From contig BCKL01000004.1 in the NCBI GenBank assembly GCA_001600635.1, positions 124,001 through 188,000 of the forward strand: a DNA stretch of 64,000 nt, in the 5' to 3' direction. Below the pieces are notes generated by a model. That model saw only the letters and a program-made list of their open reading frames with translations, ran no database searches and was not told the DNA's origin. Positions within the stretch are counted from its first letter, which is position 1. Each line of letters starts with the position of its first letter. The position numbers and the translations under genes are program-made. Below are positions 1 to 62,640 of this stretch, in pieces. This DNA comes from Leucosporidium creatinivorum. Its lineage: Eukaryota > Basidiomycota > Microbotryomycetes > Leucosporidiales > Leucosporidiaceae.

Positions 1-714
1 CGACTCATCCTCCTCCAAACGATCGCTCAGCTCCAACACCTGATTGAGCTGGACCTAGGGTTCGAGGAGAAGGATCACATCTCCATTGGACTACTTCCTC
101 ACCTTTTCCCCGCCCCACGCCACCTTCGTAAGCTCAAGCTCAGCGTATCGAGCTTCGACAAATCCCCCGACCTCTTCGTTCGGCCCGACACCAGTATCCT
201 CGACACGCCTCTCCCCAAATGTAGGATCGAGGAGCTGGATATAACCTTCCATTGCCTCCCAAAGGAGGAGATTCGCCTCGTGGTCGACTCTCTCGTCGTG
301 GGCGCCGACCGAGTCTCGGTGCAAATCAGCGACGACTGGGAGACGCCCATCCTCTCCGCCGAGGATCTGGTTCACCTCCTCAGCTTCCCCTCCGGTGCAC
401 CTTCAGTGCTCGAGCTCCTCATCTACAGCTTTGGGAGCTCAGCCCAGAATGGACCCACCGGCATTCTCCCCTTCCCCTCCCCCTCCTCCGGCGCTCATAC
501 CACCGTCTCGCGGTTCCCCACCCACAACCACTATGGATCTCAGAAGACGCGCATCATCCTCGGTGATTGGAGGAGCATGAGGAGTCGCCTGCGGCAAATG
601 CTGAAGGAGAGGAAGAAGCACGATCGCTTTCAAGAAACCGAGGGGAAGGCCGAGGTGACGAGGGGAGGGGATTTGAGAGACGGAGAGGCGGAGGAGTTGC
701 GCGCTGTGTTGTAG
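1..714 (+). CDS. F-box/LRR-like family protein, 3' part
   Basis: The frame is open from the first base to the stop at 714, giving the last 237 residues of a protein whose start lies outside the window. The first 100 residues are leucine-rich with a spacing like the other F-box-like proteins here. The stretch LPKCRIEELDIT followed by a VVDSL/LVHLL helix pattern matches the LPRCSVKHLTLH...LLDAL...LNAIL layout of the gene at 43275-44524. The last 60 residues are charged (lysine, arginine, glutamate) and not shared with the others. The F-box is not visible because the 5' end is missing. Membership is inferred from the leucine-rich layout only; a substrate-binding arm of an SCF ubiquitin ligase is the family expectation. 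Confidence 0.6.
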   Translation, partial: RLILLQTIAQLQHLIELDLGFEEKDHISIGLLPHLFPAPRHLRKLKLSVSSFDKSPDLFVRPDTSILDTPLPKCRIEELDITFHCLPKEEIRLVVDSLVVGADRVSVQISDDWETPILSAEDLVHLLSFPSGAPSVLELLIYSFGSSAQNGPTGILPFPSPSSGAHTTVSRFPTHNHYGSQKTRIILGDWRSMRSRLRQMLKERKKHDRFQETEGKAEVTRGGDLRDGEAEELRAVL

Positions 715-1129
715 AAGCATGGAGTGCATGCTAGGTGGCTCGAGTAGTGAGTCTGGCTCTCCCGCTCTCCTTCTCGCGCTTGGCGGGAGCTGACCCCTTC
801 ATTCTTCGCTCAGGCTCGGACGCGACGCCCCCTCGTAGTCGCGCCCCGTCTTACAGTGCAGAACGCCAGTAACTCGCTCCTTCGCATGCTAATACAATGT
901 TTTCGTCGTCTCGAGCTTCTCGGGAATAGGAACGGCGAGCTGCCGAGACTTCCATCTCGGCCATCGTTCGTTTCGCGCTGCGCTCCTCACCGCATCTCCT
1001 GGCTCGTCTTCTCGCCCGAGCGACAGTGCCTTTCATTTGGGTGATGTAGCATGCTGATTGTATCACTGCAAGCAAGCGTTCTATCCCGACATCCCTCTCC
1101 TCCGTCCCTCAAGCCCGACCCGAGACGCT
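715..1129. other. Intergenic, convergent 3' ends
   Basis: This lies between the stop of the leftmost F-box-like gene (+) and the stop of URA6 (-). I see no coding signal, RNA gene or repeat. It presumably holds the two 3'UTRs. Confidence 0.5.
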
Positions 1130-2925
1130 TCAGACCTCCTTCGCCGCCTCCAACACGGGCTCAATCCCCTTGACGATATCAGCGTAGACCTCGTCGATGG
1201 GCTTGGAGGAGTCGATCTGTGGGTTGTTGGGCGAGCGCGGCGAGCGTGGCAGGTGAGCGTGGCGAGGGGGGAAGGGAGGGAGGGGAGAGGGACGGGTGAG
1301 GGAGGGAGCGGAAAATGGGGTGGTGGTATGAGGCGAGGAGGGTGACAAAAATGCATAAGGTGAGGAGAAGTTGAGGGAGGAAGGCAAGGTCAGCTCAGCT
1401 CGGCTCGGCTCGGCTTGCGCAAGCAAGCAGCCTCGAGGACAGGACCAGCCAGAAAGCAAAAAACGCACCTCGACGACCTTTTGCTGCTTCTTGTAGTACT
1501 CGACGACGGGCATCGAGGTGGTGATGAAGGTTTCTGATGGCGAGGGAAGCGAGGGTAGCGAGCGGCGCGTGGGAGGGGAGCGGGAAGGCGTGTCGGGAAC
1601 GGGGAGCGAAGGGAGGAGGGAGGAGAGGATGGGGGGGCGGCGAATGAGACGAGGAGAGGAGGGAAGATGATGAGGCCGGAGCGAGCGGAGAGAGGGAGGG
1701 TCAGCTTTTTTCCTCCTTCCTCTTCCCAGCAGAGCTCGAAGTTCGTTGAAACTCACGGAACCTCTTCCTGATACTCTGCTCATTATCGTCGTCCCTCCCT
1801 GACGTCTTGCCCCGTTCGAGAAGACGCTCGAGGAGGATGGGTTCGGGGCAGACGAGGAAGAGGATTAGGGAGGAGGGGCAGACCTATCGGCGAGGTGCGA
1901 ATTGCGAGCGCAGGCGGGTTCGAGCGAGGTGGGGAGAGGGAGAGGGGGGAGTTGGGAGCGGAGGGAAGGCCGAGGGGTGAGAAGGGAAGAGGGAGAAGAA
2001 GGCGAGGGTCAGCTCGGCGCCTCGCTCGGCTGCACAGACAGGATAAAAAAAAGCCAAGCACAAACGCACCGACTCGTCAAACTTGATCGCCTGATCCATC
2101 TGCCTCGGGAATCCATCCACCAAGAACCTCTTCCCTTCGCCGTTGCCGATGGCTTCCCGCATAGCATTCTCCAACAATTGGATCGTCACCTCCATAGGCA
2201 CAATCTTGCCCTCGGTAATGTACTCTTTGATCATCTTTCCTACTTGGGAGCCTTCGCGGGTCTGTTCGGCGCGGAGGAGGTCGCCCGCTGGATGAGGGAG
2301 GGGAGCGAGGGAGGGAGGGAGCAGGGAGGGGAGCCAGAGAGTGGTGGTTGAGTGGTAAGGATAAGGTGGGTGGGTGGGAGGTTAGCGATGTAGGTCGATT
2401 GTACGGCGCGCTCGGCAGCTCGACGAGCAGCAGCGCCAGAACAAGCGACTCACCGGAGAGGTGCACGAACCCGTAATCCTTCACCAATCTAGCGCACTGC
2501 GTTCCCTTGCCTACACAAGCGCAGCGAGTGCATCCAAGCAGAAGAGCGGCGAGAGTTATAAAGGGACGCGTGTCAGCTCTCCCCTCCCCTCCCCTCCCCT
2601 CCCGCTAAGAGCTACAGGACTGACCAGCCCCCGGGCCACCAAGCACAAAGACGACGGTAACTTCCTTCCTATCGAACGCGGCTCCTGTTCCCACCGTCTT
2701 TTGATCCAGAGGGGCGATTTCCTCGGCTCCGACGGAGGTGGCAGCTGTCGAATCGAGGGCGGAGGAGTGCGAGGGTGTGGTGGGGGACATGCTGTAGGAG
2801 GGGTTGGGGGTGGGAGGTGTGATGGTCGTTGTGGGGATGGGTTGATGAGGTGCAGAAGTGGAAGAGGAGGAGGAAGAAGAGGAGGAGCTCGAGAAGAGCG
2901 TCTTTAATTTGGCGAGGAGGGGCAT
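1130..2925 (-). CDS. URA6: UMP/CMP (uridylate) kinase
   Basis: Phosphorylates UMP and CMP to diphosphates with ATP in pyrimidine nucleotide synthesis. Six exons (2925-2625, 2510-2454, 2287-2070, 1883-1757, 1533-1469, 1216-1130) join in phase to 284 residues. The P-loop FVLGGPGAGKGTQC is split by intron 1 at about residue 100, followed by DYGFVHLSAGDLLRAEQ, the NMP-binding helix MIKEYITEGKIVP, FLVDGFPRQMDQA, and the lid LLERGKTSGRDDDNEQS; then TSMPVVEYYKKQ and a short C-terminus. The order matches yeast Ura6. A serine-rich extension of about 90 residues precedes the kinase core, longer than the roughly 20 residues of yeast Ura6. The start is the only ATG directly ahead of the extension; the codon before it is GTG. 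A 70-codon ORF ends 29 nt upstream on the same strand. Shares a divergent promoter with VPS2. Confidence 0.92.
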
Positions 2926-2954
2926 CACGCTAATACACTGCTGCTATTACTATG

Positions 2955-3388: not shown

Positions 3389-6300
3389 ATGAACATCGTC
3401 AACGCCCTCTTTGGTACTTCCAAGACTCCTGCTGAGCGATTACGGTGCGTCTACTTGCTTGTATTGGTGCAGCTCGGGCTGTTGACGAGCGGAGCGGCCC
3501 CCCGCCCGTCGCTCAAGGGCTGTAGCTGACTCGCTTCTCCTCTACCTGCACCTTGACATCTTCCTATGCCTTTCCCTCACCACCTACTTCTGCTCTTGGC
3601 TCATCTCCCATCCTCCTCCTTACCGCCCGCCGCCTCCCCTCACCCACTACTCGCCCTCGTCGTCTCCGACTCGACTCGCGGGTCTATCGAATCCTCGCTC
3701 CCTCATCCCAGGCAGCACCAACGTTCCCTCCAAAAAGCGCAACGTGAACTCGACCGCGAGCGGACCAAACTGGAAGGACAGGAGAAGAAGCTGGTCATGG
3801 ATATTAAGAATGGGGCGCGCAAGGGGCAGATGGTAAGTCCTGAGCGAGCGTACTGAGGAGAGGGGATGGGAGGGGCTGGGCTGGGAGAGGAGGAGAGAGG
3901 GAGGGGGTGCCTGGGACAGGCTGGGCTGGGCTGGAGGGCAGGTAAGGGAAAGGAAGGGAGACAGAGGGAGCGCCGAGGCTGGTCCGAGTGCAGAGGATGC
4001 TCGTTCGGCTTCACTTCTTCGGAAAGTTCAGATCGAAGAGCTACATCCTACGCCTTTCCGTCCAGTCTCGGCGACGGCAGCTCGTTCTTCGGCGGAAGGG
4101 TCAGTCAGCGCCGACCGAGCTCGATGTCGGGCCAGAGTATCGGAGGGGTGTACCTGTTGCTCCGTTCGCTGCTACCCGCGATGGGAAGCAGCGGTAGAGC
4201 TTCGACTGCAACAGACTCCCTCTCCCTCCTTTCCCTCCCCGGCGCAAGCAGCTTCATGCCTACTCGCCGTCGGCGCACACGGGCGGCGGAGGTCGAGGTT
4301 CAGGCTTTCGCAGATCTCTTTGCTCGCTTGGGCGACGAGCGGATGATGTGGGATACATTGAGCCTTCTGTCGCAGATAGAGCCACCGTCTACAGCTGGCA
4401 CGAAGGCACGCTCGGTTAAGCCGAGTTGGGCATGCTCGGCAATGGAGCGATGGACGAGGTGGCTGGGCGGGACGGAGGGGTGCTTGGTCGCTTTGCTCGT
4501 GGCTCGCGAGTGAAGCAGACGAGCTTCGTTCTCTGACGACCCCAGTCTTCCCATCTTCCTGAGATCCCAGATCGCCATTCTCTGATGCAACGAACGCCGA
4601 GCCGCTTCGGCGGTGAGGACCGAGACGGAGGTAGAGACAGGGTTGCTCGTTCGCTCTCTTCCCTGTGTAGGAACGGCACGAGTGAGCTTGCCTTTCTTTG
4701 TTCTCTTCCTGTCTCATGCTTCGCTCGCTCGCCGAATGAGCCTCGAGGGCCTGCGCCGGCGAGGCGTGCAAGGATCGCTGTAGTTTCTCCCGTCTCCGTA
4801 GAGGGGGAAGGAGTACAATGTCGCTTGGTCGTGCCTCGCTGGCTAGCCTCATTGCTAGTCGACGTATGAAGAAGGGGACGGGCTGTCACGCCGAGCTGAG
4901 GAGCGAGGGCGAGACTGATGAGTAGGAGAGACGGTGCGGCGGGTCTCGTTTTGCTTCCGTAAGGAATGAAAGCGGATCTGCTACGCTTGCCACTGACTAC
5001 TCGCCGATGCCCTTTTGCTGGTCCATCCCATTGTCGACGAGCAGCGCCCAACGACCGAGCGGGCTGGGCGGTCGAGGCTTGCTGCAGCGTCCCTTGCTCG
5101 ATGGAGCCGAGGGAGGTGCAGGATGGTGCCTTTCTTCTGCCCCTCGCTCGATTGGTCTGGGCGGCCTGGTCTGCTGTCCGGCAAAGCCGAGCGAGACTTC
5201 AGTGGGCCGAAGCTGGGAGGAGGGCAGCCGCTGGGAGAGCGATGGGACGGCGCCTGCTCGCCTGACTCTCGCTCTGAGAGTCGAGTTCGCAAGCTCTTGA
5301 TCCCATGTTCCCCCGTCGCGCAGTCTTCCTCCCTCTTCGTCGAGAGCCAGAGCTGCTCGGCGGTGGCAAGGGCGCGCAAAGGACGTCGTTGAAGCTAAGG
5401 GATCGCGGGTGTTACGCTTGCTCTCCATGAGAGTGGGCGATGACCTATTCATTCCTTCTCTCTTCGACGTCTCCGACGTGCATGAGAGTTCGGTCAATCG
5501 TAGCTGGTCAAGCAGGAGCAGCGCCGAGGAAGGACCAGTCTCTTGCTCTCTCGCGTCCAATGGAGCGTGGAGGGGCGAGGAGTTATGCTTGCCTTCCTTG
5601 GGGTGCATTCTCCACTGAGCAATTCGGTGTCGGTGAGGCAGAGCGACGGGGGCAGCAAACATCTCTTGCGCGGCTGCCTTTTCTTTCGCCAAAGCAGGGG
5701 AAGACGACGCGCTGGTAGATATTGTTCACCTCTCCGCCGACTGCAGGCGGCTCGCTGTGCTCAGATCTCGGCGGTCCGGGACGCTCGGGGGTCATGCTCG
5801 CCGCTCTTGTCTCGCTGGTTCTCAGCAGCGAGATGGGGGCGGATAGACGTTGGATGAGCCGCGTCCTTCTCTCTCCCTTCGTGTCCCTTCGACAGATGAG
5901 CCGGACGACAGCGACGCCGAAAGTCAAGCGACGGCGCAGAGCAGGTTCGAGCCAAAGTGTTGACCTCGGTTTTTTCGAGCGACGAGACGGGTCACATGCC
6001 TGGCGGAACTGCCATTTGTCTCGCTCGAGATTCCGCTTCGTCTCTTCGTCTCGTCTGTCTGATCTCGCAACCCTCCGCTCGCGAGGGCGACTCGGCTGAG
6101 GGAGCTGTCTGCTGGATTGCTCAGACGGAGCGGTTCACAGACTGAGCTCGGATCTTGGCTATTCCTGCAGGGTCGCCTCGCCGGCGCTTGATAGTTCGAG
6201 CCAGGGGATAGAATCGGACGCTTAACCGAGCAGCGTGGAGATCGTGTCTGGCGGCCCTCAGCTGAGCTGAGAGGCGCCGGCGAGATCGACGCGTTGGCGC

Positions 6301-7616
6301 AGGTTTAGTCGCCGCATGCCCCGCTCCGTCTGGACGCTGTGAAAAGAGGGATGAGATCAGTCGAACTCGGTGCACTCGCAGGCGAGCGGGTTAGGCGACG
6401 GCTCTCGTGAGCTATCGAGGGTGCGCGTGCGCTCTCATAGTCTGTGGGGATGTACTCGCCCTCTCTCTCTCTCTCCCCCCTGGCATGCCTGTGCAGCTCT
6501 ACCTTCTCAGTTGAGTGGTAGCGGCCGAGCGGACGAGTCGGCTTTCGCTGAGCTTGCGAGGGGCGACAGCTCTTCGTAGTGCAGTGATTGGACCCTCGTC
6601 GTTGCCGCAGCTCAGCACGTCGCAACACGTTCACCTCGGGCACCTTTTCTCCTTGGCTATCCGCCGACTGCTGAGCAGGAGCGAGGTCGGGCCCTCCCTC
6701 TCTCGGGAAGGCTCGACCAGACAGCTAACTGTTGTCTTCAGCTCCACCTCCCTTCGAACAATTCGCTGACTGATCTCACTTTCGCTCTCTCCCGCTCCCA
6801 GAACTCGTGCAAAGTGATGGCCAAGGACCTCGTCCGAACGCGGCGCTACATCTCCAAGTTCTACTCGATGAAGACGCAGCTGCAGGCCGTCTCTCTCCGC
6901 TTGCAGACACTGAGGAGTAACCAGCAGATGGCCGAAGCGATGAAGGGTGCTACCAAGGTGCGTTCCTCCCTCTCCTGCGCCCTGCCCCTCCTCGCTGAGA
7001 AGCTGACCTCCCTCGTTTCCCGGCGTCAACAGGCCATGTCCCTCATGTCCCGCCAGCTCAACCTCCCGCAAATCCAGCGCATCCTACAGGACTTTGAAAA
7101 GGAGAGTTCAATGATGGACATGAAGGAGGAGATGATGGGCGAGTCGATTGACGATGCCATGGAGGAGGATGAGGGCGAGGGGAATGAGGAGGAGGAGAGT
7201 AGTAAGATTTTGGAGGAGGTCTTGGCCGAGATTGGGGTTAGTGTGGGACAGCAGGTGAGTTCTCGGTGCTCTCTTGTCGGCCGAGCTCGAGCTGGCTGCC
7301 CGCTTGCGCGCTCTTCGCTGGCCCTCTCTCACCCTCTCTGCTCTACTTTCACCTTCCATGTCATGCTTCCCTTTCCTCTCTTTGCCGTACTCACCTCACT
7401 CTGCCTCCTTCCATCCTCCCTCGCCTCCCTCCTCTCCCTCAAACGCAACAGCTCGGCGAAGCCCCATCCTCCCTCCCCGCCGCCTCAGTCGCCGAACCCT
7501 CACAACGTCAAGCCGTGGCTATGGGCGAAGGAGCACCTGCATCGAGCGGTGGAGGAGCTGGTGGCGGAGAGGTCGATGACTTGCAGGCGAGGTTGGATCA
7601 GCTGAGGAGGGATTAG
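3389..7616 (+). CDS. VPS2: ESCRT-III subunit Vps2/Did4 (CHMP2 family)
   Basis: Part of the ESCRT-III filament that drives membrane scission in multivesicular-body sorting; its C-terminus recruits the Vps4 ATPase. Exons 3389-3444, 3712-3832, 6802-6957, 7033-7254 and 7452-7616 join in phase. The N-terminus MNIVNALFGTSKTPAERLR is the usual amphipathic start of the family. Then come the basic helix RELDRERTKLEGQEKK, CKVMAKDLVRTRRYISKFY, LQAVSLRLQTL, AMSLMSRQLNLPQI and EFEK-like DFEKESSMMDMKEEMM, an acidic linker, and the C-terminal MIM1-like helix VDDLQARLDQLRRD. All blocks are in family order. The intron between exons 2 and 3 is 2,969 nt against about 50-150 for nearly all others here. A partial second copy lies at 56088-60660. 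Confidence 0.95.
3833..6801 (+). other. Giant intron of VPS2
   Basis: The intron runs from GTAAGT at 3833 to CCCAG ending at 6801, with a CGCTGAC branch-like site about 35 nt before the acceptor. The protein reads straight across it (GQM then NSCKVMAKDL), as in CHMP2 proteins, so no exon is missing inside. It has polypurine tracts and many short ORFs on both strands, none recognisable. The same insert, 2,993 nt and clearly alignable (for example 3968-4200 with 56338-56575), sits at the same position in the second VPS2 copy. It may hold an old inserted element or a non-coding RNA; I cannot tell which. Confidence 0.85.
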
Positions 7617-8327: not shown

Positions 8328-9566
8328 CTACATCCACACAACCGGCGCGCGCAGCATGCTGGCCAGCTCCTTCAGCTGCGCGACGTCCGAGTCCGACCAA
8401 TCCTGACCTCGCTTCGCCCAGAACTCTTGAGGCGGCGTCTCCGACACACCCTCGAACTGACTCCAGCTGTGCGTCTCCATATCGAGCTCGTTGACGATGG
8501 TCTTCCATGCCCCGGCCTTAAGATGGCTGGTGACGATCGTCGGACATCCTGGGCCCGGGTCCATTTCGTACGTCAAATAAAGTCATCCCATCGGGGCGGG
8601 GACTCGGAGAGAGCGCCAGTCCTTGGGTTCCGACATCGCAATCACTTCGATTGAGCAGTAGCTCATCCTTTTGATATAAGTTGGGAGAACGTTGTTGAGC
8701 TGACTGAATGACGGAGGCGGAGCGAGGGAGGGGAAGTTGAGGCGGAGCTGCTGGGTCGACGAGGCCAAGAGGCCAAGAGCCGACTTGATGAAAGTGATTT
8801 TGTTATCCTTGACCGCCACTCGGAGATGGCGGATGCTGCAGTCGGGCCAGCTCGGCAGTCGACCCCTCGCCCCCGCTTCGAAGACAATGTCGAGCCAGTG
8901 CAACGACTTCAGGGTGGAGTGAAGTGGGCGTAAGGCTTCCGCCGACGTTCCACGCGGATCCAGGTGAAGAACTCGAAGGTTCCTCAGCTGAGGGATGACC
9001 GTCGAGATCTGGGTCTCTGCCGTCGACCTCGGCGTGATTCCGCGGATGGCGAGCGTGACAATATTGACGCACTCAACGAGGAGGATGACCATGGCGCGTC
9101 CAAGTAGCGGCGAGTCCTCACTGGCGAGAGAGTCGGAGGCCTTGCTTGTAGTCCCGCTGAGGCTCACAATTCGAAGAAGCGGGCCGAGTTGAGGTCGGTG
9201 GAGGAGCAGGTCGGCAAAGTCCATGAGGCTGACGAATCCAGAGATGTTCCATGCGAGGAGTCGGCGGGATATGGGGTAGAGTCGCGTTTCGACAAGGGCG
9301 AGGGCTCGGCGGTCGCTTTCAAGGAGGTGATTGGCGATGTCGTCCAGCAGCTCGTCGGGGTTGTCGTTGAAGCTCTTGGGCTTGGGCGGGTTGAGCGAGA
9401 GAGCGGCGAAAGGAGAGGCGAGAGTATCGGTGGAGGAGGGAGCAGCCTGCGAGGACGAGCAACAGAAGGTCAGCTCTCGCCCTCGGCGCTCGTCTCTCAG
9501 CCTCTGACCACTCACCTCCACCATCTCAGTGCTCTCCTGCTCCAGCTTCGAGTCTTGAGAGTCCAT
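8328..9566 (-). pseudogene. F-box/LRR-like gene with one in-frame TGA
   Basis: Exon 1 (9566-9516) gives the family leader MDSQDSKLEQESTEM plus two residues; exon 2 runs from 9446. An F-box-like segment FNDNPDELLDDIANHL is followed by ADLLLHRPQLGPLLR and leucine-rich repeats. At 8585-8583 a TGA occurs where the relatives have tryptophan (GVGW or GPGW), after which the same frame stays open for 83 residues with the family C-terminus, ending at 8328. This is therefore a single nonsense change in an otherwise intact gene, or a protein shortened to 304 residues, or a sequence error. The promoter module upstream looks complete. Confidence 0.8.
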
Positions 9567-9582
9567 AGCGAGCTTCGACGAC

Positions 9583-10145
9583 CTGCGAATCGACCAGCAA
9601 CACATGAGCTCGAGCCCTTTGCGACCGTCCGTCCTCCCTCGTCGAGCTGCTCTCTCGATGCAGGGAGAGCTTGGGTGGAGCTGAGCAGTGGTGCAGAGGA
9701 CTCACTTTGCTCAGTATGATGAAGCGCTCAGAGCTATTGTGGTCCGAGCCTCCAGCAGCGAGCGAGTGAGTCGAGGAGAGGGTGACGAGGAGAGGGAAAG
9801 CGACGAGGAAGCGAGCGAGGGAGCGGCGAGAGAGCTGTAGGAAAGTAGCAGTCGTCCGGTAGAGCTTCCAGTGGCTTCGAGTCCTGTCTGACCAGCGAAA
9901 GCGAGTCGAAAGCGCAGAAGACGAGGTAATGGCGGGAGGGAGCGAGAGCTCGACGGCCAAGTCCTCGCTTCCCCTCAGCCTCGAGCAGAACAAGGGGGCG
10001 CGTTCTGTAACTCAGTGTGGATCGGCTGGGAGCTCGAACGATGAGAAGAGAGCGTACTGTCGACATCTCCGTCCTTTCCCAGCCTGAGCTCGAGCGAGCT
10101 CAGCCAAAGCCGAGCTCGCCAGCCTTGCATCGCCAAAGCCGGCTC
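9583..10145 (-). repeat. F-box 5' module (promoter + 5'UTR intron), copy 1
   Basis: A block of about 560 bp ahead of the F-box-like gene, strongly alike to blocks at 16073-16657, 22770-23319 and 42715-43274, with shortened copies at 62253-62640 and 53470-53790. It includes a stretch rich in TCGTCTTCTGCGCTTTCGAC and ends in an intron (donor GTGAGT at 9705, acceptor at 9583) just before the leader ATG. Confidence 0.8.
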
Positions 10146-11928: not shown

Positions 11929-12080
11929 GGGATCTCTAGGACAAGGCTAGGGGGCGTGTGCTGGTCTCATCGATATCTCACCACACATTATCTCACGGGC
12001 CCCATCTCTCGAGCTCCCGCTAACCTTCCCTCTCCTCTCCATTCCCCTTCCTCTCGCCGCTTTGCAACCTGCAGGACGAC

Positions 12081-16072: not shown

Positions 16073-16657
16073 CTTCGGCCAAGGCCGCTGGCGAGCTCGG
16101 TTGCGGCTCCGCTCGAGCTCAAGCAGGAAAAGGACGGCGATCTCGACTGCACGCTCGATTCTCTGTGTTCGAGCTGCCAGCCGACCCTCCCTGAGCGACA
16201 GAGCAGAACCCCTTGTCCTGCTCGAGGCGGAAGGGCAAAGCGAGGACTTGAAAGTTGGCCGTCGAGCTCACTCTCTCTCCCACCCTCACCTCGTCTTCTG
16301 CGCTTTCGACTCGCTCTCGCTGGCTGAACAGGAATCGAAGCCACTGGAAGCTGTACTGGACTACTGCTACACCTCTACACCCCTACACCTCACCTCGCCG
16401 CTCTCTCGCCCGCCCTCCCGACGCTTTCCCTTCCTCGTCACCCTCTCGCCGACTAGCTCGCTTGCTGCTGGAAGCTCGGACGTCGGTAACTCACAGCACT
16501 GTATCAGACTAGCTAGGTGAGTATCTTGCACCTCTGCTTGGCCCTTCCCAGCTCTTCTTGCCTCGAGGCAGCGGCTCGACTTGGAGGACGGACGTCGAGT
16601 CGAAAGGCCTCGAGCTCATGTTTTGCTGGTCGATTTCGCAGGTCGCCGAAGCTCGCT
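16073..16657 (+). repeat. F-box 5' module, copy 2
   Basis: Same block as ahead of the gene at 8328-9566, in direct orientation before the next F-box-like gene. Its 5'UTR intron runs from GTGAGT at 16517 to the acceptor at 16641, 16 nt before the leader ATG. Confidence 0.8.
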
Positions 16658-19783: not shown

Positions 19784-19938
19784 NNNNNNNNNNNNNNNNN
19801 NNNNNNNNNNNNNNNNNNNNNNNNNNNNNNNNNNNNNNNNNNNNNNNNNNNNNNNNNNNNNNNNNNNNNNNNNNNNNNNNNNNNNNNNNNNNNNNNNNNN
19901 NNNNNNNNNNNNNNNNNNNNNNNNNNNNNNNNNNNNNN
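19784..19938. other. Assembly gap (155 N)
   Basis: Undetermined bases following a C homopolymer. Confidence 0.99.
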
Positions 19939-51600: not shown

Positions 51601-52218
51601 CTGCGTCCGAGTCTACGCCGAACGGTGGAAGCTTACCCTCTCCTTAACCAGTTCGAGTCGCTCTCACCCCCGAGGCCTCACCGAGACATCTCCGGACATC
51701 TCACTCCTCCTCACTCGCCCAGCCTCCCCGCCGTCGCCTCTCCTACCCTCAACGCCGCCGCTCTCAATCGTTCTCGCTCCTCCCCGCCCCCCTCGATCTC
51801 CTCCACCGTCGGCTCTTCCCAGCTGAGCACTCCCTCCCATCCCGGCGACGTCCCATTTATCCTCTCTCCTGGGCTCGGCGAAGCTTTCGGTCTGCTCGAT
51901 TCGGAGGGCAGACCCTCTGGCGAGTTCCCATACGTCGATGAGGGCTCAAGTGAGAGGGCGGAAACTCGGTCGGAGTTGGAGGAGACTTCGTTCCCGGATG
52001 GCGAGGACAGCGGCGACGAATATGATGGGAGCGTGTTTGAGGGCAGGCCGGAGGGCGGAGGATTCCGTTTCGAGGACGAGGATGGTGAGACGGAGGGATG
52101 GGCGACAGAGCAGTACCTCGTGATGGAGTCAAATGGTCAAGGCGAGGATCAGAGTTGTATGACTTTCGACCATCTGGTGAGCTTTACGATCCCCATCCTC
52201 GGCCTTGACTGGCGCTGA
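48678..52218 (+). CDS. Large disordered protein with Tyr-Pro repeats
   Basis: Exons 48678-49260, 49317-49396, 49459-49732, 49801-51587 and 51652 onward join in phase. A folded N-terminal domain runs from MRWLVHVVPPDVLPH, GRYSGGILLPLQPT, LGAQIALIAREFSLPS to LAARIEFDIDPRKARWLPAW; similar domains occur in fungal proteins of unknown role. The long middle is serine/proline-rich, with CDWSIKMHPLWE and a repeated Tyr-Pro unit (YPYMDVYPPAYPHFDLY; YPFNLAQICPSVYPTL; YPSFASLYPSVYPHLTFYP). An acidic tail follows. Two introns have GC donors (49397 and 51588). The frame ends at TGA 52218 only if the last intron is kept; if spliced, it runs into 6-phosphogluconolactonase, giving 1,364 residues in total. Confidence 0.7.
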
Positions 52219-53265
52219 TCTCATTTCCCGTCGCAGTCGCCCATCGACCCTCAACCTCCCATCGAGCTCCCGCCAGCACCAATCTTCTTCACCTTCCCTC
52301 CCATCTCTGGGTCCGACGACCTGGCCGCTGCCGTCGGACAGTATGTCGTTGAGGCGCAGACGCAGTCGATCCTTCGCCGGGGTCGATTCACCATCGCTCT
52401 GACGGGAGGAGACATGCCGCAGATCCTCGCCGAGGCGCTGTTGGGAGATGATCGAGTAGACTGGAGGAGATGGTGAGGTTGAGCGTCGCTTCGTATTCTG
52501 CCGAGCATCGCTGACCCTTCGCCGTCTGTAGGGAGGTCTTCTTCGCCGACGAGCATCTCGTGCCACTCGACGACCCCAACTCGACCTTCGCCATCTACGA
52601 CAAGCTCATCTTCTCCCGAGTCCCGATCCCGGCGTGGCAAATCCACACCATCAAGCCGCTACCCGAGCTGTCGGAGGGGCAGAACGTCGAGAAGGCGGCG
52701 CACAAGCTCGCCGAGGACTACGAAGAGCAACTTAACAAGGCCTTCCCGGAGTGCAACAGTGATGGTGAGTAGTCCACGCACTCACAGCGCTTCTGCAAGC
52801 CCCGAAGCTCACCTTCGCGCTTCGCAGATGGCATCGCCGAACCGCCTCGCTTCGACTTGGTCCTTCTCGGCATGGGATCGGATGGTGAGGAACTTAGACG
52901 AGCGTGAACTCGAGTCCCTGAGCTGACGCTCTAAGCCTCCTGTAGGTCACTGCGCCTCGCTCTTCCCATCCCACCCTCTCCTGGCCGAGCGCGACTACCG
53001 GGTCTCTCCCATCCTCGACGCTCCCTCTCCTCCCTCCTCTCGCATCACTTTCACTCTTCCCGTCCTCTTCGCGGCTCGTCGACTCGCTTTCGTCTGCACA
53101 GGCGCCGACAAGTCGCTCGCCCTCGGCCACGCTCTCGATTTGGGTTCGGAGGAGAAGGTGCCTGCTGGTCGAGTCGTGCTGAGGGGACATCCCGTCGTGT
53201 GGTTTGTGGATGAAGAGGCGGCAAGTGGGGTGGAGTACCCGAGGAGCGAGTTTTGGGAGGAGTAA
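52159..53265 (+). CDS. 6-phosphogluconolactonase (SOL-type)
   Basis: Hydrolyses 6-phosphogluconolactone in the oxidative pentose phosphate pathway, a source of NADPH. Exons (52159)-52176, 52237-52472, 52532-52764, 52828-52884 and 52946-53265 join in phase. Seen are FTIALTGGDMPQIL (family SGGSLP), FFADEHLVPLDDPNST (family ADERxVP, arginine replaced by histidine), LVLLGMGSDGHCASLFP with the active-site histidine, and PPSSRITFTLPVL. The only nearby starts are ATG 52159 and ATG 52123, both inside the last exon of the upstream gene and in the same frame. So it is either an independent gene with an overlapping promoter or the C-terminal half of a fusion. Confidence 0.88.
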
Positions 53266-53469
53266 CTTTGCTTTTGGGTTCGAGCTACTTTAAGGGTTGG
53301 CGAGTCAATGCAGTCTATTCGCTCCTTCATGAGATACGCGAGGTGAAGAGGACAGAGACCTCGTCTATCGGTACATGAACGCGAAAGGGGAGACCTCGCC
53401 TCGGGGTCAGCCAGCGCGGCGATGGACTTCGGCGCCATCTGTCGACGTTATCTCTCAAACTTTTCCGCG

Positions 53470-53790
53470 CGATGAAGAGGTACAGCACTCTTCGAGTAAA
53501 CCTTCCAGAGGCTTTTATCCTTGCAGAGAGCAGAAACAAGTCGAAAGCGAAGAAGACGAGGTGATGGCGAGTGGGAAAGAGCGCTCGACCGCCAAGTCCT
53601 CGCTTTCCCTTCAGCCTCGAGCAGAACAGGGGGAGCTGCCGTTTCGCTCCGTGAGAGTATCCTGCGAGCGTTCATGGCTAGCAGGAACTGTACAGCCGAG
53701 CTCAGTATGCTGTTGTCGCTCACAGCTGGAGCTCAGCCACAGCCAAGCTCGCAAACCTCATCGCCGAAGTCGTCTCTCGTCGTTCTGCTC
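53470..53790 (-). repeat. Solo F-box 5' module
   Basis: On the minus strand this matches the central part of the 560-bp module (CTGCTCGAGGC...GCGAGGACTTGG, then the CTTCGCTTTCGAC stretch). No F-box gene follows it; the 6-phosphogluconolactonase 3' end does. It is probably the remnant of a lost family member. The surrounding 53266-53992 holds no gene. Confidence 0.65.
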
Positions 53791-53992
53791 TTCCTTCGCC
53801 GTCTCTCGGTCTCACTACTCGACATCAGCGTTCACAAAGCGTAGTGCGTTCATAGCACTCTGCGGCAGAGCCAGCAAGCAACGGTCTCCCCCAGCATCTT
53901 CGGCGACCGCTGCCAAGCAGCTCCGATCCAGCTGAGACGATAGAAGAGGTTCAGTGGTGACCCTTCTGGCAAAAGGTCAAACTATACGCACC

Positions 53993-55425
53993 TCAGCACC
54001 ACTCGACAGTCGCGCCCACTACTCTCACGATCTCGTCGAGCTTCGTAACGTTCGCTTCGCCCCAGGCAGGCCTGCCTCCCGCCTTTATAACCCATTGCGT
54101 GTCTTCGGCGGCAGGGGAGAAGCACCAGATGGTACCGTCAAGATGTCGCAAGCACTCCTTGCGTTGCACGCCCTCGCCGGTCCAGAAGCGCCGGAAGACA
54201 GTGTCGCGGCCCAAGCCACTAGCACTGAGAATGAACTGCTTCAGCAGCACCCATGCGGCCTCGCTTGACATCCGTGGGTAATAAGGGCGGGGATTCCACG
54301 TCCTGGTGAAGTGGCTCCAGCAGAGGAAGTTTGTCTGAGCCATGTAGGGGAAGCAGGCGGCCTGAATCTCGGCGGGGTTGGTGAACGCGACATCGCCATC
54401 GTCTTCGACACAGACTTCAATGAAACGAGAGTCCTGAGCAAGAGAGTTCAGTAGCGCGCTGAGAGATTGGTTGGTGACTCCAACGACGTAGAGGTCGCAG
54501 CGAGCGGCTGAGCATCGTTGGAGGCGAGGAAGTGGGCGAGTCGGGTCGACACGAAGAGGGCAGCGTAGGTATTGAGTCGAGGAGAAGGCGGGCATGGCGA
54601 GAGGGAGATGTTCGACGTCGAGGAAGCTGGTCTGCCCTCCAAGGTCGGCGTACTGGAGACACTCGAGCTGGCCGATCGTCTCCATCAACTGCTTCTGCAC
54701 CGAGCGATGAGGGATGTGGGAGCTGAAGCGTAAATCATGGATGTGTGGAAGCTCTTGCAGGGCGATGTGTAGAGCTCGGCTGGTGAGGAGAGGTAGGTAC
54801 GGCGTGTCTGCCTCTTCGTTCAGGCTCTCGTCAGGGCTTCCCTCAAGGCGCGTCTGGCGGATGAGCTGGGCCAGCTGAGGACGCTCGAGTAGCAGGTCGG
54901 TGAGCTCCATCAGCTCCTCGAATCCAGTAGCTCTCCAGATGGCGTGTCGATGAGCGGGCTCGCGCCAGCGACGGGAGACGAGGGCGAGAGAGGGCAGGTT
55001 GGCGGGCGGAACGAAGGCGGCGATGGCGTCGAACAGCTCGTCGGGGAGGTCGTCGATGGTGGTGGGGATTTGTTGAGGGGTGAGGGAAAGCTTCGACATG
55101 TCGTGCTGCAGATCGGCGACGCTGCGCGGCTGCTCGAGCTCGGCGGAGGGGGTCTGCGCGCCGAAGTAGTTAGCGCGGCTTTCGGTGAGGGGAGCAGCGG
55201 CACGGATGCACACCTTATCAGCTTCCAGTCTCGCGCTTAAGCTTCCAAGCACCTCGCGAGCAGCAGTTGGAGCACTGTTGAGCGACGGGAGGGAGAAGTC
55301 AGCTTTCTGTAGACAAGCAGCTTAATGTGCTACAGGCGAGCAAGGTAGGCAGCATACGAGACTCACCTTCTCCCTCCTCTGCCTGCCTTAGCTTTCTGCC
55401 CCTGCTTAGCTTTGCGCTTGGCCAT
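53993..55425 (-). CDS. F-box/LRR-like protein, second subtype, intact
   Basis: Exons 55425-55367 (59 nt), 55274-55214 (61 nt) and 55153-53993 give 426 residues. The first exon is lysine/arginine-rich (MAKRKAKQGQKAKAGRGGR) and could be a nuclear or nucleolar signal. The core has IDDLPDELFDAIAAFVPPANL, SRRWREPAHRHAIW, LLLERPQLAQLIRQTRL, leucine-rich segments, LPRLQRCSAARCDL, SSEAAWVLL and the end GATVEWC. It is the intact relative of the pseudogene at 21138-22540. Confidence 0.82.
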
Positions 55426-55870
55426 CTCTCCAGCGCGGTTCGAGCGAGCGAGCGAGTCCTGTAGCTTCTGTAGCCGATTCAAGCCGTCGAGTGAGCAGTC
55501 TTGTAGGCTTCTCCTCGAGTACGAGTCGGAGCTGAGGTGACGAGAAGAAGCGATGGTTGTAGTAGGAAGCAGAGGAGCTGCGAGTTGAAGGAGAGAGGGA
55601 GAGGGGTTCAGTCGGCTGATGAGCTGCAGAGGAGCTATGGGGGACTGGGAGAGCAGCTCTCAAACTCTTCAGACTACCCAACTGCTCCCCTATAGCTCTT
55701 GCCAGCTTCCCCTTGCCTCAGCCTGATGCCCTCCACCTCCCTCTCTAGAGCTCTCCTCCCAAATTCTCGGCTCGTTCAACAGCTTCGACTTCGGTACAGC
55801 AGGGGATAGATCTCGGTGATGATGCGCTAGGAAGATAGGCTAGGGGATCGGGCTACAGGTGAGCACAGGC
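55426..55870 (-). repeat. F-box 5' module, second type, copy 2
   Basis: Counterpart of 20690-21137, directly upstream of the intact second-subtype gene. It ends close to the point where the VPS2-copy region begins on the other strand, so this may be a duplication boundary. Confidence 0.7.
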
Positions 55871-56204
55871 TACAGACCGGCGTGCACGCTCGAGCACGCG
55901 CAGGCTGATGGTCCCGTCTCGGCGACAGCTTCTCTCGACCCCCGGCAGCAGCGTATCAGCCTACAACACAACAGCATACCCCTCTTTCCTCCCCTCCCTC
56001 CCCCGCAGCTCTTTCTCAGCAGCGCAACTCCCCACCTCGCGTCACTTTACATTCGCTCGCTCTCGGCTCTCAACGACTCAGCTACAGCACCAACGTTCCC
56101 CTCACAAAGCGCAACGGGAGCGCGACTGCGAGCGGACCAAACAAGAAGGGCAGGAGAAGAAGCTGGTGATGGACATTGAGAATGGGGCGCGGAAGGGGCA
56201 GATG

Positions 56205-59197
56205 GTGAGTTCTGTGGTGCGAAGCGTTCGCGAGGCCGAGGGAGTATGGCGAGGCTGGGTGGGAAGGGAGAAGAGGAGAGGGAGGGTTGGGCTGGGCTGG
56301 AAGAAGCTGGGAGGGAGAAGGAGGGGGGAGGAGCGGAAGGAGGGAGCGCCGAGGCTGGTCCGAGTGCAGAGGATGCTCGTTCGGCTTCACTTCTTCAGAG
56401 AGATGAGGTCGAAGAGCTACATCTACGCCATTCTGTCCAGTCTCGGCGAATGCAGCACGTTCTTCGGGCAGAAGGGTTTAACGCCGACCGAGGTCGGGCC
56501 AGAGTCGGGAGGGATGTACCTGTTGCTCCGTTCGCTTCTACCCGCGATGGGATGCAGCGGACGAGCTACGACTTTGACAACTCCCTCTCCCTCCATCTCC
56601 TCTTCGGTGCAAGAAGCCGCAAGGCTCTTCGACGTCGGCGCAGACGAGCGGGCGCGGGGCAGGTCAGGCCTTCGCAGATCCCGTTGCTCGCTTGAGCGAG
56701 CGGAGGATGTGTGATGCAGTGGCATTTTTTCATCGCCACCAAGGCCACCGTGTACAGCTGACAAAGAAGGCAGGCCGAGTTGAGCCGGGTTTGGGCTGCT
56801 TGGCGCTGGAACGATGGAGGTGGCTGGGCGGGACGGAGGGGTGCTTGGTCGCTTTGCTTGTGGGTCACGGGCGAGGCAGACGAGCTATCACTTCCGACCA
56901 GTCCAACGTCCCCGTCTTCCTCAGATCAGATCTCAGTTCCCCGTTCCGTGCCAAAGAACGAACACCGAGCCGCTTTTACCGGTCGCAGCCGGGATGGAGG
57001 TAGAGCCAGGTTACTTGCTCGATCCTCTCTCTTTGTGGTGACGGCGCGAGCGAGCTGCCCACTCCATCCTCGTCCTGTCTCGTTCTTCGCTCGCTCGCCG
57101 AATGAGCATCGCGGGCCTGAGCCAGTGAGGCGCGCCAGGGTCGCTGTAGCTTCTCCCACTTTGGCTGGAGGTGGGAAGGAGTACATTGTCACTTCGTCGC
57201 ACTTCGATGGCCAGCCTCTCTGCCATCCGGTTGGCGAGGAAGCAATGAGTTGTCCCGCCAAGCTGAGGAGCGGGCGCAAGACTGCTGATGAGGAGACCTG
57301 TTGCGGGCTGCGCTTTGCTCTCGCGGAGGGAGTCGAGTGTATCCGCTTGACTTGGCCTCTCGATCTTCAGTCGGTGCCCTCTCGCTAGCACATCTCGTCG
57401 ACGAGTAGTTGTCGAACGAACGAGCCGGTTGAGCAGGAGCGAGGCTTGCTGCACCGTCTCTCGCCTTGTTGAGGTGGGAGAGCTGCAGGATGTCTGCATC
57501 CTCCACTTCCCGCTCCGTCGATCGAAGCGTCGGGGTCTGCTGCTTGCCGAGGACGGAGCAGCACCTTCGCGAGCTGGACGCAAGAGAACGCTGAGCTGGC
57601 GATGAAGTGGCGCTTGCTCGCTCGACTCTCATGGCGAGAGCTTGGTAGCACGCTCACACGCTTTCTTGCCCGCGCCGCGCCGTGTTCCCTCCTTCGACGA
57701 GCGCCAGAACTCTTCGGCGGTGGCGATGGTGGCAATGGCTCGCAGAGGGCGTCGTCGAAGCGGAGGGATACGGGCGATACGTCTGCTCCCCATGAGCGTG
57801 GACGTGTTTCTGCTGTTTCTCTTTCCTCCCTGCGTCTCCAGTATTCGTGAGACTTCGGTCGATCGTAGCAGCTGGAGCAGGAGCAGCGCCAAGGAAGACG
57901 GGTCTCTTGCACTCTCGCGTGGAATTGAGCGTGGAGGAGTGAGGAGTCCACCTCGTCGTTCTCAAGCTACATTGTCCACAGTGGCCAGGTCTGCTGAGCA
58001 ACTCGGTGTCGGTGAAGCAGTCCGACGGGGGAGCGGGCATCTCCTGCGCGGCTGCCTCTCCTCTCGTTAGAGCAGGAGAGGCGACGCCCTGGTAAAGCCT
58101 GAGCTCTCCTCTCCGTGGCCCTCACTTCTCCCGCTGACTGCAGGCCGCTCGCTGCGCTCAATTCTCGGCGCCTGAGGACGCTCAAAGGTCACGCTCGCTG
58201 TTTCCGTCTCATTGCTTCTCAGCAGCGGATTGGGGGCGGATGCACAGTGCTTGAGCGGCGTCCCTTTCCTTCGCTTCGTGTCCCTTCGACAGATGAGGCG
58301 GATGCCATCAACGCCGAAGGGGGGGGGAGCGACGGGGCAGGGCACGCTTGAGCTGGCTTGTTGAGCTCGTCTCTTCGAGTGAAAAGACGGACCACATGCT
58401 TTGCCGGAAGTGTTGCTCCCCTCGCTCGAGATGTCGCCTCACCCGTCGCCTTGGCGGTCTGATCTCGCAACCTCGACCGCTCGCAAGGGGGGCTCGGCGG
58501 AGGCAAGTGCCTGCTGGACTGCGCAGATTTGTTCTGCGCACTTTGCGGACTGCACCTTTGCTCCGTGGATTCCCGCCGGGCGACATCGCTGGGGCTTGAC
58601 AGCTTGAAGCGAGAGGATCAACTTGGAGGCTGAGCCGAGCAGCGTTGAGACCGCGACCGGTGGCCCTCCACAGCGTTGGGAGGCGCCAGTGAGATCATCC
58701 TGAAGGCAAAGGTCCAGTCTGGCCACACATCTCTCCACCTCGAATCTGTGGGAGGAGGAGGAGGAGCTCGGCTGGACTCGGCTCACTCGCAGGCGAGCGG
58801 CACAAGCGACGGCTCTCATAGGCTACTGAGGGTGCTCGAGCCCTTTCGTGGTGTACGTGCTTCTCGGCTCTCGGCTTGCTCGTGCAGTATGGCAGGCTCT
58901 CGAGCTCGGCTTTCGGCTCAGAGAGTTGACGAGGACGAGCAGACCAGTCGGCTTTCGCTAAGCCTGCTAGGGAGCAGAAGCTCTTGGCGGATCAGTGATA
59001 CGAGCTGCGCCGTGGTCGACTTCGCGTGTACGAGCACGAGGTGCCTTTCGCCCTTGAGTAGCCGCTGACGGCTGGACTGGGAGCGAGCTCAGCGGTCTGA
59101 GCAAGCCTTATCAACCGAATTTGGCGCTGCCACTGTCACCTCCTCCTCCCTTCGAGCAAGTCGCTGACCATTCTCCTCCCATCTTCCCCTACCTCAG
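56205..59197 (+). other. Giant intron of the VPS2 copy
   Basis: 2,993 nt from GTGAGT to CCTCAG, homologous along its length to the 2,969-nt VPS2 intron but visibly more diverged than the flanking exons. No conserved long frame: helical-looking frames in one copy break in the other. Confidence 0.8.
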
Positions 59198-59714
59198 AAC
59201 TTGTGCAAAGTGATGGCCAAGGACCTCGTCCGAACGCGGCGCTACATCTCCAAGTTCTACTCGATGAAGACGCAGCTGCAGGCTGTCAGTCTCCGTCTAC
59301 AGACGCTGAAGAGTAACCAACAGATGGCCGAAGCAATGAAGGGTGCTACCAAGGTGCGTCGTCCCCCTCGCGTCTCACTCCTCCCTCGCCGAGCCGAGCT
59401 GACCTCCCCCTACTCGACGCAACAGGCCATGTCCCTCATGTCGCGCCAGCTCAACCTCCCGCAAATCCAGCGCATCCTACAGGACTTTGAAAAGGAGAGC
59501 TCGATGATGGACATGAAGGAAGAGATGATGGGTGAGTTGATTGACGATGCAACAGAGGAGAATGAGGGCGAGGGGAATGAGGAGGAGGAGAGTAGTAAAA
59601 TTCTGGAAGAGGTGTTGGCCGAGATTGGGGTTAGTGTGGGACAGCAGGTGAGTTGCCGATGGTCGGAGCTAGTTACTCGAGTGAGATGGCTCCCCGCCTT
59701 CGCGCCGCTCGCTG

Positions 59715-59760
59715 ACTCTCCCTCTCCCTCTCCCTCTCCCTCTCCCTCTCCCTCTCCCTC
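59715..59760 (+). repeat. (CTCTCC)n simple repeat at gap edge
   Basis: Perfect six-base repeat running into the assembly gap, the probable cause of the gap. Confidence 0.9.
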
Positions 59761-60502
59761 NNNNNNNNNNNNNNNNNNNNNNNNNNNNNNNNNNNNNNNN
59801 NNNNNNNNNNNNNNNNNNNNNNNNNNNNNNNNNNNNNNNNNNNNNNNNNNNNNNNNNNNNNNNNNNNNNNNNNNNNNNNNNNNNNNNNNNNNNNNNNNNN
59901 NNNNNNNNNNNNNNNNNNNNNNNNNNNNNNNNNNNNNNNNNNNNNNNNNNNNNNNNNNNNNNNNNNNNNNNNNNNNNNNNNNNNNNNNNNNNNNNNNNNN
60001 NNNNNNNNNNNNNNNNNNNNNNNNNNNNNNNNNNNNNNNNNNNNNNNNNNNNNNNNNNNNNNNNNNNNNNNNNNNNNNNNNNNNNNNNNNNNNNNNNNNN
60101 NNNNNNNNNNNNNNNNNNNNNNNNNNNNNNNNNNNNNNNNNNNNNNNNNNNNNNNNNNNNNNNNNNNNNNNNNNNNNNNNNNNNNNNNNNNNNNNNNNNN
60201 NNNNNNNNNNNNNNNNNNNNNNNNNNNNNNNNNNNNNNNNNNNNNNNNNNNNNNNNNNNNNNNNNNNNNNNNNNNNNNNNNNNNNNNNNNNNNNNNNNNN
60301 NNNNNNNNNNNNNNNNNNNNNNNNNNNNNNNNNNNNNNNNNNNNNNNNNNNNNNNNNNNNNNNNNNNNNNNNNNNNNNNNNNNNNNNNNNNNNNNNNNNN
60401 NNNNNNNNNNNNNNNNNNNNNNNNNNNNNNNNNNNNNNNNNNNNNNNNNNNNNNNNNNNNNNNNNNNNNNNNNNNNNNNNNNNNNNNNNNNNNNNNNNNN
60501 NN
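59761..60502. other. Assembly gap (742 N)
   Basis: Undetermined bases inside the last intron of the VPS2 copy; the matching VPS2 intron is only 197 nt. Confidence 0.99.
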
Positions 60503-60983: not shown

Positions 60984-62236
60984 TCAAACCCACTTCAGCG
61001 GCACGCGAAACTTCAGCGCAATCCTTTCGATCTGGCTGACCGCCTCGTCGCTCCAACCGGTCCCCCTCCTCACGGTCGCCAATCTCCTCTCCAGCTGCAG
61101 CTTGAACCTCAGTCCGCCGGCGAACCTCAAAAAGCTCTCCACAACATCCCCAATCCAGATGTTGTTGACCTCGAAGGAAGTTGAGGTAGCGCCGTTGACA
61201 GGGTTGAACTCGCTGGGGTCGAATCCCCAGAAGTGGAGCCAGCCGGGTCCTCGAGGGATGTTGTACTGGAGTTGAGTGGGGATGACCTCGCCTTCCATGC
61301 ATACGGAGATGCAGACGGTCTCGGTGTGGGCAAAGACGGGCGTGACGAGCTCGATGAAGTCGGCGCAGGAAAGTGGGTAGTCGTTCATGCCGAGGTAGAG
61401 GTAGCCGGTCACGTTGGTGCCAAAGCAGGAAAGGACAGATTGGACGCCGAGCTTGGTGAAGCCGTTGAGTTTGAGGGTGAGCTGCTTGAGAGGCATGGGA
61501 AGCTCGGGCAGGTCTACCTCAGCACCAGCAAGAATAGGGCGCAGCGCCGCTCGAAGAACGCTGCGAGGCCGCAGAGCCCGGGCAGCGAGGATTAGACAGT
61601 GGTAGTGGATGGGACTGGTGGCCTCGAGCAAGTGGAGCTCGTGAAGTTGCAACCGTGCAACTCGTCTCATCAGTCTCTCCTGCTCCCTCGCAGCGGCCGC
61701 GACGTGGATGATGCTGAGCCAACGGACGTGGGGACAATCCTTGACGATAATCGCCATGAGCCTTGTCTGAATAATGAGGTTGATGGCGGGATCCAAGTCG
61801 CGCACCTCGGCGCTCGCCGTTCCCTTTAGAGCCAAATCGCGAATGACGAGCCCAAACGGCGGATGCTCGAGCACCCGGTCCGCGAAGCCCAGCAGAGCTT
61901 CCAAACCTCGAGCAAAGAAGGGCGTTCGACGTCGAGCTGGAGCGTAGTACCTCTTCTCGACAAGTGCAAAGCGAGGGAGGTCATCGACGGCGACCAAAGC
62001 GGCGACGTTGTCCAGCAGCTTGTCGGGGATGTCGTTGAAGCTTTTCGGCGTGGGAGGGGCGATTGAGAGGGAAGCGAGGGAGGAGGGAAGAGGGTCGACG
62101 GAGGCGGGAGGAGCCTGCGAGGAAGCGAGAGCACCAGCGGGTCAGCTCTAAGCTCGGTGGTCGTCTTTCACACCGAACAACTCACCTGCACCATCCCACC
62201 ACCCTCTTGCTCCGGATTCAAGCTTTGAGAGTCCAT
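60984..62236 (-). CDS. F-box/LRR-like protein, intact
   Basis: Exons 62236-62186 and 62114-60984 give 393 residues. Leader MDSQSLNPEQEGGGMVQ, then FNDIPDKLLDNVAALVAVDDL (LPDELLD changed to IPDKLLD), FALVEKRYYAPARRRTPFF, VLEHPPFGLVIRDLALKG, leucine-rich segments, LPMPLKQLTLKL, PRGPGWLHFWG and the end FRVPLKWV. It is tail-to-tail with the VPS2 copy, the same arrangement as VPS2 with the gene at 8328-9566. Confidence 0.8.
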
Positions 62237-62252
62237 AGCGAGCTTCGAAGAT

Positions 62253-62640
62253 CTGCGAAAGCGACCAGCAAAACATGAGCTCGAGCCCTTTATCGTCCGT
62301 CCTCGCCTCGTCGAGCTGCTCTCTGATGGCCAAGGGAGCCAAGGAGAGGCCAAGCAGGGGTGCAGAGTACTCACCTAGCTACTGAGATCAAACTCTGAGA
62401 GCTGGGGACGTCCAAGTTTGCAGCAGCGAGCGAGTCGACGAGCGGGTGACGAGGAGGGGAAGGGTTGAGAGCGACGAGAAGCAGGGGCGGCGGGGTGAGG
62501 TGCAGGTGTGTAGCAGTCGTCGAGTACAGCTTCCAGCAGCTTTGATTCCGGTCTAACCAGCGAAAGCCAGTCGAAAGCGCAGAAGACGAGGTGATGGCGG
62601 GACGGAGAGAGCATGCGACGAGAGGCTCGGGCTCGACTTA
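62253..62640 (-). repeat. F-box 5' module, copy 5 (shortened)
   Basis: It carries the 5'UTR intron (donor GTGAGT at 62374, acceptor at 62253) and the CTTCTGCGCTTTCGACT stretch. The match to the other modules stops near 62640, so the distal 200 bp are missing. Confidence 0.75.

Follow-up and report, generated by a model that had tools for sequence, protein, structure and literature searches.

A clustered F-box/LRR gene family of Leucosporidium creatinivorum with far-diverged bodies behind alike 5′ blocks

Large F-box gene families are known in plants and nematodes. Passages of PMC8665587 describe Caenorhabditis F-box families that form local clusters, multiply by species-specific duplication and conserve the F-box better than the substrate part, and propose that they recognize foreign proteins. 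We describe here an F-box/leucine-rich-repeat (LRR) family in the yeast Leucosporidium creatinivorum that shares this clustering, duplication and uneven conservation, and of which eight copies lie in the 64,000-nucleotide stretch of DNA that we analyzed (the window; contig C4, BCKL01000004.1, positions 124001–188000). It departs from the nematode families in its selection, because 73 of 95 C. elegans pairs have C-terminal peaks above 1.5 in the ratio of nonsynonymous to synonymous divergence (dN/dS) according to the same passages, whereas the one trio testable here shows purifying selection only. The apparently homogenized 5′ blocks found here also have no mention in those passages for Caenorhabditis F-box families.

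The mouse V1R genes, as treated in passages of PMC1955453, likewise form clusters of paralogues in which promoter blocks longer than 500 bp are conserved, and gene conversion was raised there as a cause of promoter homogenization in two V1R subfamilies. Coding divergence in V1R genes is below or about equal to that of their promoters, whereas the order is reversed in the F-box family. A precedent for a gradient running from transcription starts is the polarity of meiotic recombination in Saccharomyces cerevisiae described in part of PMC6215864; that polarity acts between alleles, whereas here it would act between paralogues, as read from sequence only. Searches of open-licence literature, by title and start of abstract, listed nothing on homogenized F-box 5′ blocks or on an F-box expansion in Leucosporidium, most subscription papers lying outside this scope.

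At the protein level, the closest systems are the FBXL receptors of Skp1–cullin–F-box (SCF) ubiquitin ligases with solved structures, namely COI1, TIR1, MAX2/D3, FBXL17, FBXL2 and Skp2. The family shares with them an N-terminal F-box, recognized by sequence, and a predicted LRR arc. It differs in that identity in structural alignments is only about 5–14%, no Pfam LRR model matches, and the family has no known substrate or ligand.

Membership and extent of the family

The first-pass annotation of the window had listed eight loci, numbered here from left to right, as a local expansion of an F-box/LRR-like family, and both their kinship and the local character of the expansion are borne out. A single-protein search with member 3 returned members 2, 4, 5, 6, 7 and 8 at E values from 6e-33 to 2e-17, and the start positions given earlier for members 2–8 fall on an ATG in seven of seven cases. 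Member 1 is a distant relative with weak pairwise matches to member 7 (E 4e-4) and member 5 (E 2e-5); a family profile built without it matches it at E 8.5e-24 over family positions 33–260, and a family 5′ block lies directly upstream of it, outside the window (C4:122914–123444). Across three alignments, protein identity to the first sequence is 23–31%, with 41% for members 4 and 7 and 14–18% for the member 1 piece.

We searched the genome (27.7 Mb, 63 contigs) in six frames with members 3, 5 and 7 and two 5′ blocks as queries, and then scanned the pieces around the matches with the profile. The family ranges from 4.2 kb to 213.9 kb on C4, a contig that starts with telomere-like repeats (CCCTAA three times in the first 60 bases, degenerate in between); outside C4, the six-frame search found family matches only at C53:7355 and at three weaker places. 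Eight members is therefore an under-count, as 20 gene copies and three 5′ blocks without a body lie between 4 kb and 214 kb of C4. The expansion is a genuine F-box/LRR expansion, ordinary in kind, confined to about 210 kb and larger than first described.

Two different 5′ blocks, one of which every copy carries, define class A (13 copies) and class B (7 copies). Six of the seven class B copies have a class A copy or a class A 5′ block behind them on the same strand (class B/class A positions on C4, in kb: 109/107, 22/20, 121/124, 145/147, 178/177.5 and 212/211). A single open frame runs from the F-box to the profile end in 10 of the 20 copies; the remaining ten have frames that are interrupted, split or short, for some of which unrecognized introns may be responsible. 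The three 5′ blocks with no recognizable body in the adjoining sequence lie at C4:197801–198359, at C4:211030–211582 and in the window at 53484–53932 (− strand). This last one, a class A block found by self-comparison, is directly downstream of member 7, and frames starting at window positions 52001–54099 gave no family-profile match at E ≤ 10 except member 7 itself.

The F-box assignment is supported by sequence profiles together with the family alignment, although only two of the eight window proteins exceed the Pfam cut-off and the box of member 1 lies outside the window. In the protein search with the Pfam F-box-like model PF12937, members 4 (33.9 bits) and 7 (35.5 bits) scored above the cut-off, members 3 (15.6 bits) and 5 (20.9 bits; 24.8 bits in the genome search) scored below it, and the other four had no match. 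In the family alignment, members 2, 6 and 8 have the F-box in the corresponding position; member 6 has LSEQLLD where the family box reads LPDELLD. The repeats are supported by fold, as AlphaFold2 models of exon 2 of member 6 (mb666576c3957) and of member 7 (m0e0dc1e8911f) predict an α/β leucine-rich-repeat arc after the F-box, although no Pfam LRR model matches any of the eight window proteins. A GVGW motif had been described as often shared; only two of the eight, members 3 and 5, carry it exactly and member 8 has GPGW instead, so "often" was too strong.

On the strength of the predicted fold and of what is known of such families, an SCF ubiquitin-ligase role is likely, with the F-box putatively binding Skp1. 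The Skp1 model PF01466 matches the genome only at C30:225470–225695, in two pieces 94 bp apart that are probably one gene with an intron. For member 3 and alignment A3, the protein-database matches listed include none at E ≤ 1e-3, which is weak evidence of absence because the query itself is not among them; the database does contain an L. creatinivorum protein. Member 5, the sole member tried, had no solved structure by sequence.

F-box genes are abundant and clustered in this genome as a whole. There are at least 128 matches to PF12937 (150 of 330 candidates scored) and 32 to PF00646, and 69% of F-box matches have a neighboring match within 50 kb, against 37% (maximum 55% in 2,000 trials) under a crude null of random placement on one line. 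These counts are higher than those given for yeasts of the same fungal class, with the same Pfam models, in parts of PMC10662464 and PMC4469406. PF12937 averages 34.6 (standard deviation 13.1) in Rhodotorula strains and stands at 20 in R. sphaerocarpa ETNP2018, for which PF00646 stands at 14 against a strain mean of 22.2 (PMC10662464); PF00646 numbers 7, 18 and 12 in M. lychnidis-dioicae, S. roseus and R. glutinis, respectively (PMC4469406). Passages of PMC7991009 give 11–17 F-box proteins for S. cerevisiae, S. pombe, U. maydis and P. graminis. With six-frame matches here set against annotated proteins in the published studies, at least 128 F-box-like matches amount to nearly four times the Rhodotorula mean and are unusual for Microbotryomycete yeasts.

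Alike 5′ blocks, far-diverged bodies

The most striking feature of the family, which the first-pass annotation missed, is the low divergence of its noncoding 5′ block. We aligned 12 of the 13 class A copies around the F-box, leaving out member 1, and compared all 66 pairs. Mean pairwise identity is 0.30–0.49 beyond −600, rises to 0.71–0.79 from −600 to −181 and is 0.60–0.69 from −180 to the F-box; within the F-box, it falls from 0.67 to 0.56 over the first two 60-bp windows, reaching about 0.4 in the body. Splice signals and frame suggest that the block of about 600 bp begins with a promoter and a leader exon, that an intron of some 120 bp separates the leader from a 17-codon exon (approximately MDSQxSKLEQESSEMVQ; member 5 lacks it), and that a second intron comes last.

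Across the 66 pairs, the mean difference is 0.24 in the promoter, 0.25 in the leader part and 0.37 in intron 2, compared with a mean proportion of differing silent sites (pS) of 0.68 in the body (range 0.60–0.75), which is saturated. No pair has a promoter distance above 0.33, whereas body pS is nowhere below 0.60. At replacement sites, divergence is lower in the F-box part than in the body (proportion differing, pN, 0.37 versus 0.57). Promoter distances do not follow body distances (rho −0.04 with pN; 0.23 with pS, p 0.06). In class B, member 4 and the copy at 121 kb differ upstream by 0.15–0.18, with one stretch 98% identical, at a body pS of 0.63; upstream distances of the 109-kb copy over −480 to −75 are 0.30–0.41.

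The body and block trees of class A reject each other in approximately unbiased (AU) tests (p 2.3e-4 and 4.1e-6). Because the unlike first exon of member 5 violates the null of the conversion-run test, we repeated this test and the tree tests without that member. The tree conflict persisted (AU p 2.8e-3 and 3.7e-41), and the 5′ blocks had a modestly significant excess of identical stretches (global p 0.013–0.029, against p 0.001 with member 5 included).

Selection on the bodies can be read in the class B trio M7/B109/B212, which is unsaturated (dS about 0.75). Its dN/dS values of 0.21, 0.24 and 0.26 show purifying selection, and no 60-codon window has pN above pS, the closest being a tie of 0.31/0.31 in the first window between member 7 and the 109-kb copy. 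Member 7 against the 121-kb copy (M7/B121) gives a dN/dS of 0.47. The diversifying selection suggested by the first-pass annotation thus finds no support in the trio, for which we rejected positive selection as the cause of body divergence, and saturation of silent sites makes selection in class A unreadable; weak or site-limited diversifying selection may still act.

As a control, we examined a Snf7-family (Pfam) duplicate pair in the window (6817–7254 and 59213–59647), which we take to be Vps2-like. This pair shows the normal order of divergence, with 0.28 upstream, 0.43 over 69 sites of intron, pS 0.24 and pN 0.02. Genome-wide, blastn gave 15 pairs among 34 F-box loci, and we tested nine of them (eight outside C4); because DNA similarity selected the pairs, those with conserved DNA around the F-box are favored. 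Divergence over the 600 bp upstream is lower than at the silent sites of the body in L007/L012, L018/L026 and L021/L022, which lie on C17, C30 and C8, and more weakly so in L027/L028. The opposite, normal order holds in L009/L015, L009/L027 and L014/L024, and the frame is too short to judge in L029/L030 and in the C4 pair L017/L019. With three of nine tested pairs in normal order, we rejected the idea that the 5′ pattern occurs in every F-box cluster of the genome. The Snf7-family control and the mixed F-box pairs together indicate that the inverted order is general neither to duplicates here nor to all F-box genes. Two of these pairs are young: L027/L028 (C16) has no silent difference in the F-box, and L014/L024 (C40) is 95% identical in DNA over 1.75 kb.

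Gene conversion and rival explanations

We favor, with slightly better than even confidence, the view that this is a lineage-specific F-box/LRR family of probable SCF receptors whose bodies turn over by birth and death while its 5′ ends are homogenized by ectopic gene conversion. Local duplications confined to about 210 kb at one chromosome end would have enlarged the family. As fold and family knowledge suggest, its proteins would bind Skp1 through the F-box and the substrate through the LRR body. Conversion would repeatedly make the 5′ blocks alike, from promoter through leader and introns to the first coding exon. Such conversion events would begin close to the promoter and die out within the F-box, since the bodies would be too dissimilar for pairing; the gradient of identity from promoter into gene is as expected from conversion starting near transcription starts. 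The outcome would be an unusual two-speed evolution, with old, far-diverged LRR bodies behind alike 5′ blocks. Because introns and promoters are far better kept than the body, this inverted divergence offers a natural test of promoter-anchored conversion as a homogenizer of gene families, and crosses and gene deletions may be possible in this yeast group.

The main rival, which we consider unlikely, is shared function: promoter and leader would be held by purifying selection for co-regulation, translation control or the leader intron, with no conversion, while the bodies age. There is indeed almost no variation at the splice signals, at the start codon and in parts of the leader intron, and constraint combined with saturation would likewise give a star-like block tree. 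Among 11 members (tree length 1.7), 66 of 229 promoter columns are invariant where one rate predicts about 43 by exp(−1.7); rates vary clearly in both introns (gamma shape 1.4) and more mildly in the promoter (2.7), so some constraint on the block is present. A block frozen by function would, however, be mostly invariant and otherwise saturated, and the fairly even promoter rates, with 163 of 229 columns varying, led us to judge a fully frozen regulatory element less likely. Constraint also fits poorly with an effect that covers all 600 bp including introns and has a sharp outer edge near −600, with the conflict between block and body trees, and with pairs that are locally 95–98% identical despite far-diverged bodies. 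We favor conversion over constraint, giving it about double the weight. The converse proposal, in which the duplications are as young as the 5′ block makes them look and the bodies were driven apart by strong positive selection or local hypermutation, accords with the gap between promoter distances and body pS in all 66 class A pairs and with the same order in the F-box pairs on C17, C30 and C8. We consider it very improbable, because positive selection does not raise silent divergence, dN/dS in the trio is low and its body pS (0.47) only moderately exceeds its 5′ divergence (0.28–0.35), and the intermediate F-box part fits a conversion gradient rather than a body-wide mutator.

Plain genomic drift is somewhat less credible than constraint. 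Here, F-box genes would multiply and die at little consequence, leaving many pseudogenes, and the likeness of 5′ ends would be a passive by-product of chromosome-end repeats; judging by its title, PMC3030570 takes the drift view of plant F-box families, and the interrupted, split or short frames of half the copies and the three bodiless blocks agree with it. The ten copies with one open frame from F-box to profile end and the purifying selection in the trio speak against it. Less plausible again is the idea that the F-box-like head of these LRR proteins has lost its role in SCF: although half of the window proteins have no Pfam F-box match, member 6 departs from the family box and both models resolve the F-box region poorly, the F-box is better conserved than the body (pN as above).

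Several observations count against the account that we favor. The control is one gene pair with a 69-bp intron, the deep body alignments make the body tree and pS rough, and conversion tracts reach no more than modest significance in the run test. Rate variation in the promoter is real (log likelihood 6.2 better with a gamma distribution) and stronger in the introns. Pairs with larger promoter distances tend to have lower F-box pN (rho −0.34, p 0.005), a trend for which we offer no explanation. On the protein side, besides the four window proteins with no Pfam F-box match, the F-box helices are low-confidence in both models (block predicted local distance difference test scores of 45–68), the COI1 and TIR1 alignments of member 7 cover their LRR and not their F-boxes, and Foldseek gave no match at E ≤ 0.001, its best being FBXL17 at 3.4e-3.

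A bolder extension of the conversion account, which we hold to be doubtful, would make the 5′ blocks recombination anchors through which dispersed receptors keep trading promoters and F-box heads, with their recognition bodies free to drift apart. If true, conversion would keep a common switch and docking head in front of a private recognition body, and the anchors would be at work in several F-box clusters, that is, in classes A and B on C4 and in the pairs on C17, C30 and C8.

Window members and neighboring features

Of the class A members, member 1 (1..711, + strand) is the 3′ part of a gene whose open frame runs from C4:123446 and whose F-box lies left of the window. Member 2 (8328–9566, −) has a short first coding exon from the ATG at 9566, its F-box at 9371 and an in-frame TGA at 8583–8585; its 5′ block (9372–9971, −) comprises promoter, leader exon, leader intron, 17-codon exon and intron 2. 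Member 3 (16658–17957, +; F-box at 16863; 5′ block 16263–16862, +) has a last exon open to the stop. In member 5 (23320–24629, +; F-box at 23550), the first coding exon differs from that of the other class A members, and clear homology in its 5′ block (22950–23310, +) ends at about 23310. Member 6 (43275–44524, +; F-box at 43466) appears, from splice signals and frame, to have coding exon 1 from 43275, an intron and exon 2 at 43391–44521; its 5′ block (42866–43465, +), the reference for the conservation profile, has a putative leader intron at about 43140–43259. Member 8 (60984–62236, −; F-box at 62039; 5′ block 62040–62639, −) has an open last exon.

The two class B members of the window are member 4 (21138–22540, +; F-box at 21503; 5′ block 20657–21502, +) and member 7 (53993–55425, −; F-box at 55057; 5′ block 55058–55882, −). 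The last exon of member 7 is open. Member 4 has a TAA at 22133–22135 with a change of frame around it, reflecting either a broken copy or an unrecognized intron.

The listed genes are not the only F-box genes in the window, an assumption we rejected on finding a Met30-type F-box/WD40 gene at 32789–34969 (−), outside the F-box/LRR family and absent from the earlier list. Over 91% of its length, the product shares 86% identity with an L. creatinivorum protein; the other organism-named proteins among its best 46 matches come from genera that we take to be Microbotryomycete.

Scans of the window detected neither a tRNA nor an Rfam family at gathering score. Two runs of N (19784–19938 and 59761–60502) are presumably assembly gaps. 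Pfam identifies an importin-beta-like (HEAT/TPR) protein at 29414–31342 (−) and, marginally, an N-terminal domain of peptidase family M13 at 45606–46256 (+; 33.3 bits, cut-off 32). A tandem direct duplication of about 494 bp (40128–40621 and 40917–41410) is 95.5% identical. A 3.7-kb block is matched at two places in the genome, both on the + strand of the window (3713–7338 and 56085–59732; 71–73% identical), with the Snf7-family gene at its 3′ end and no clear gene seen in the preceding 2.9 kb; the second run of N lies inside the second copy of this duplicated region, and downstream of each copy of the block comes a minus-strand F-box member of class A.

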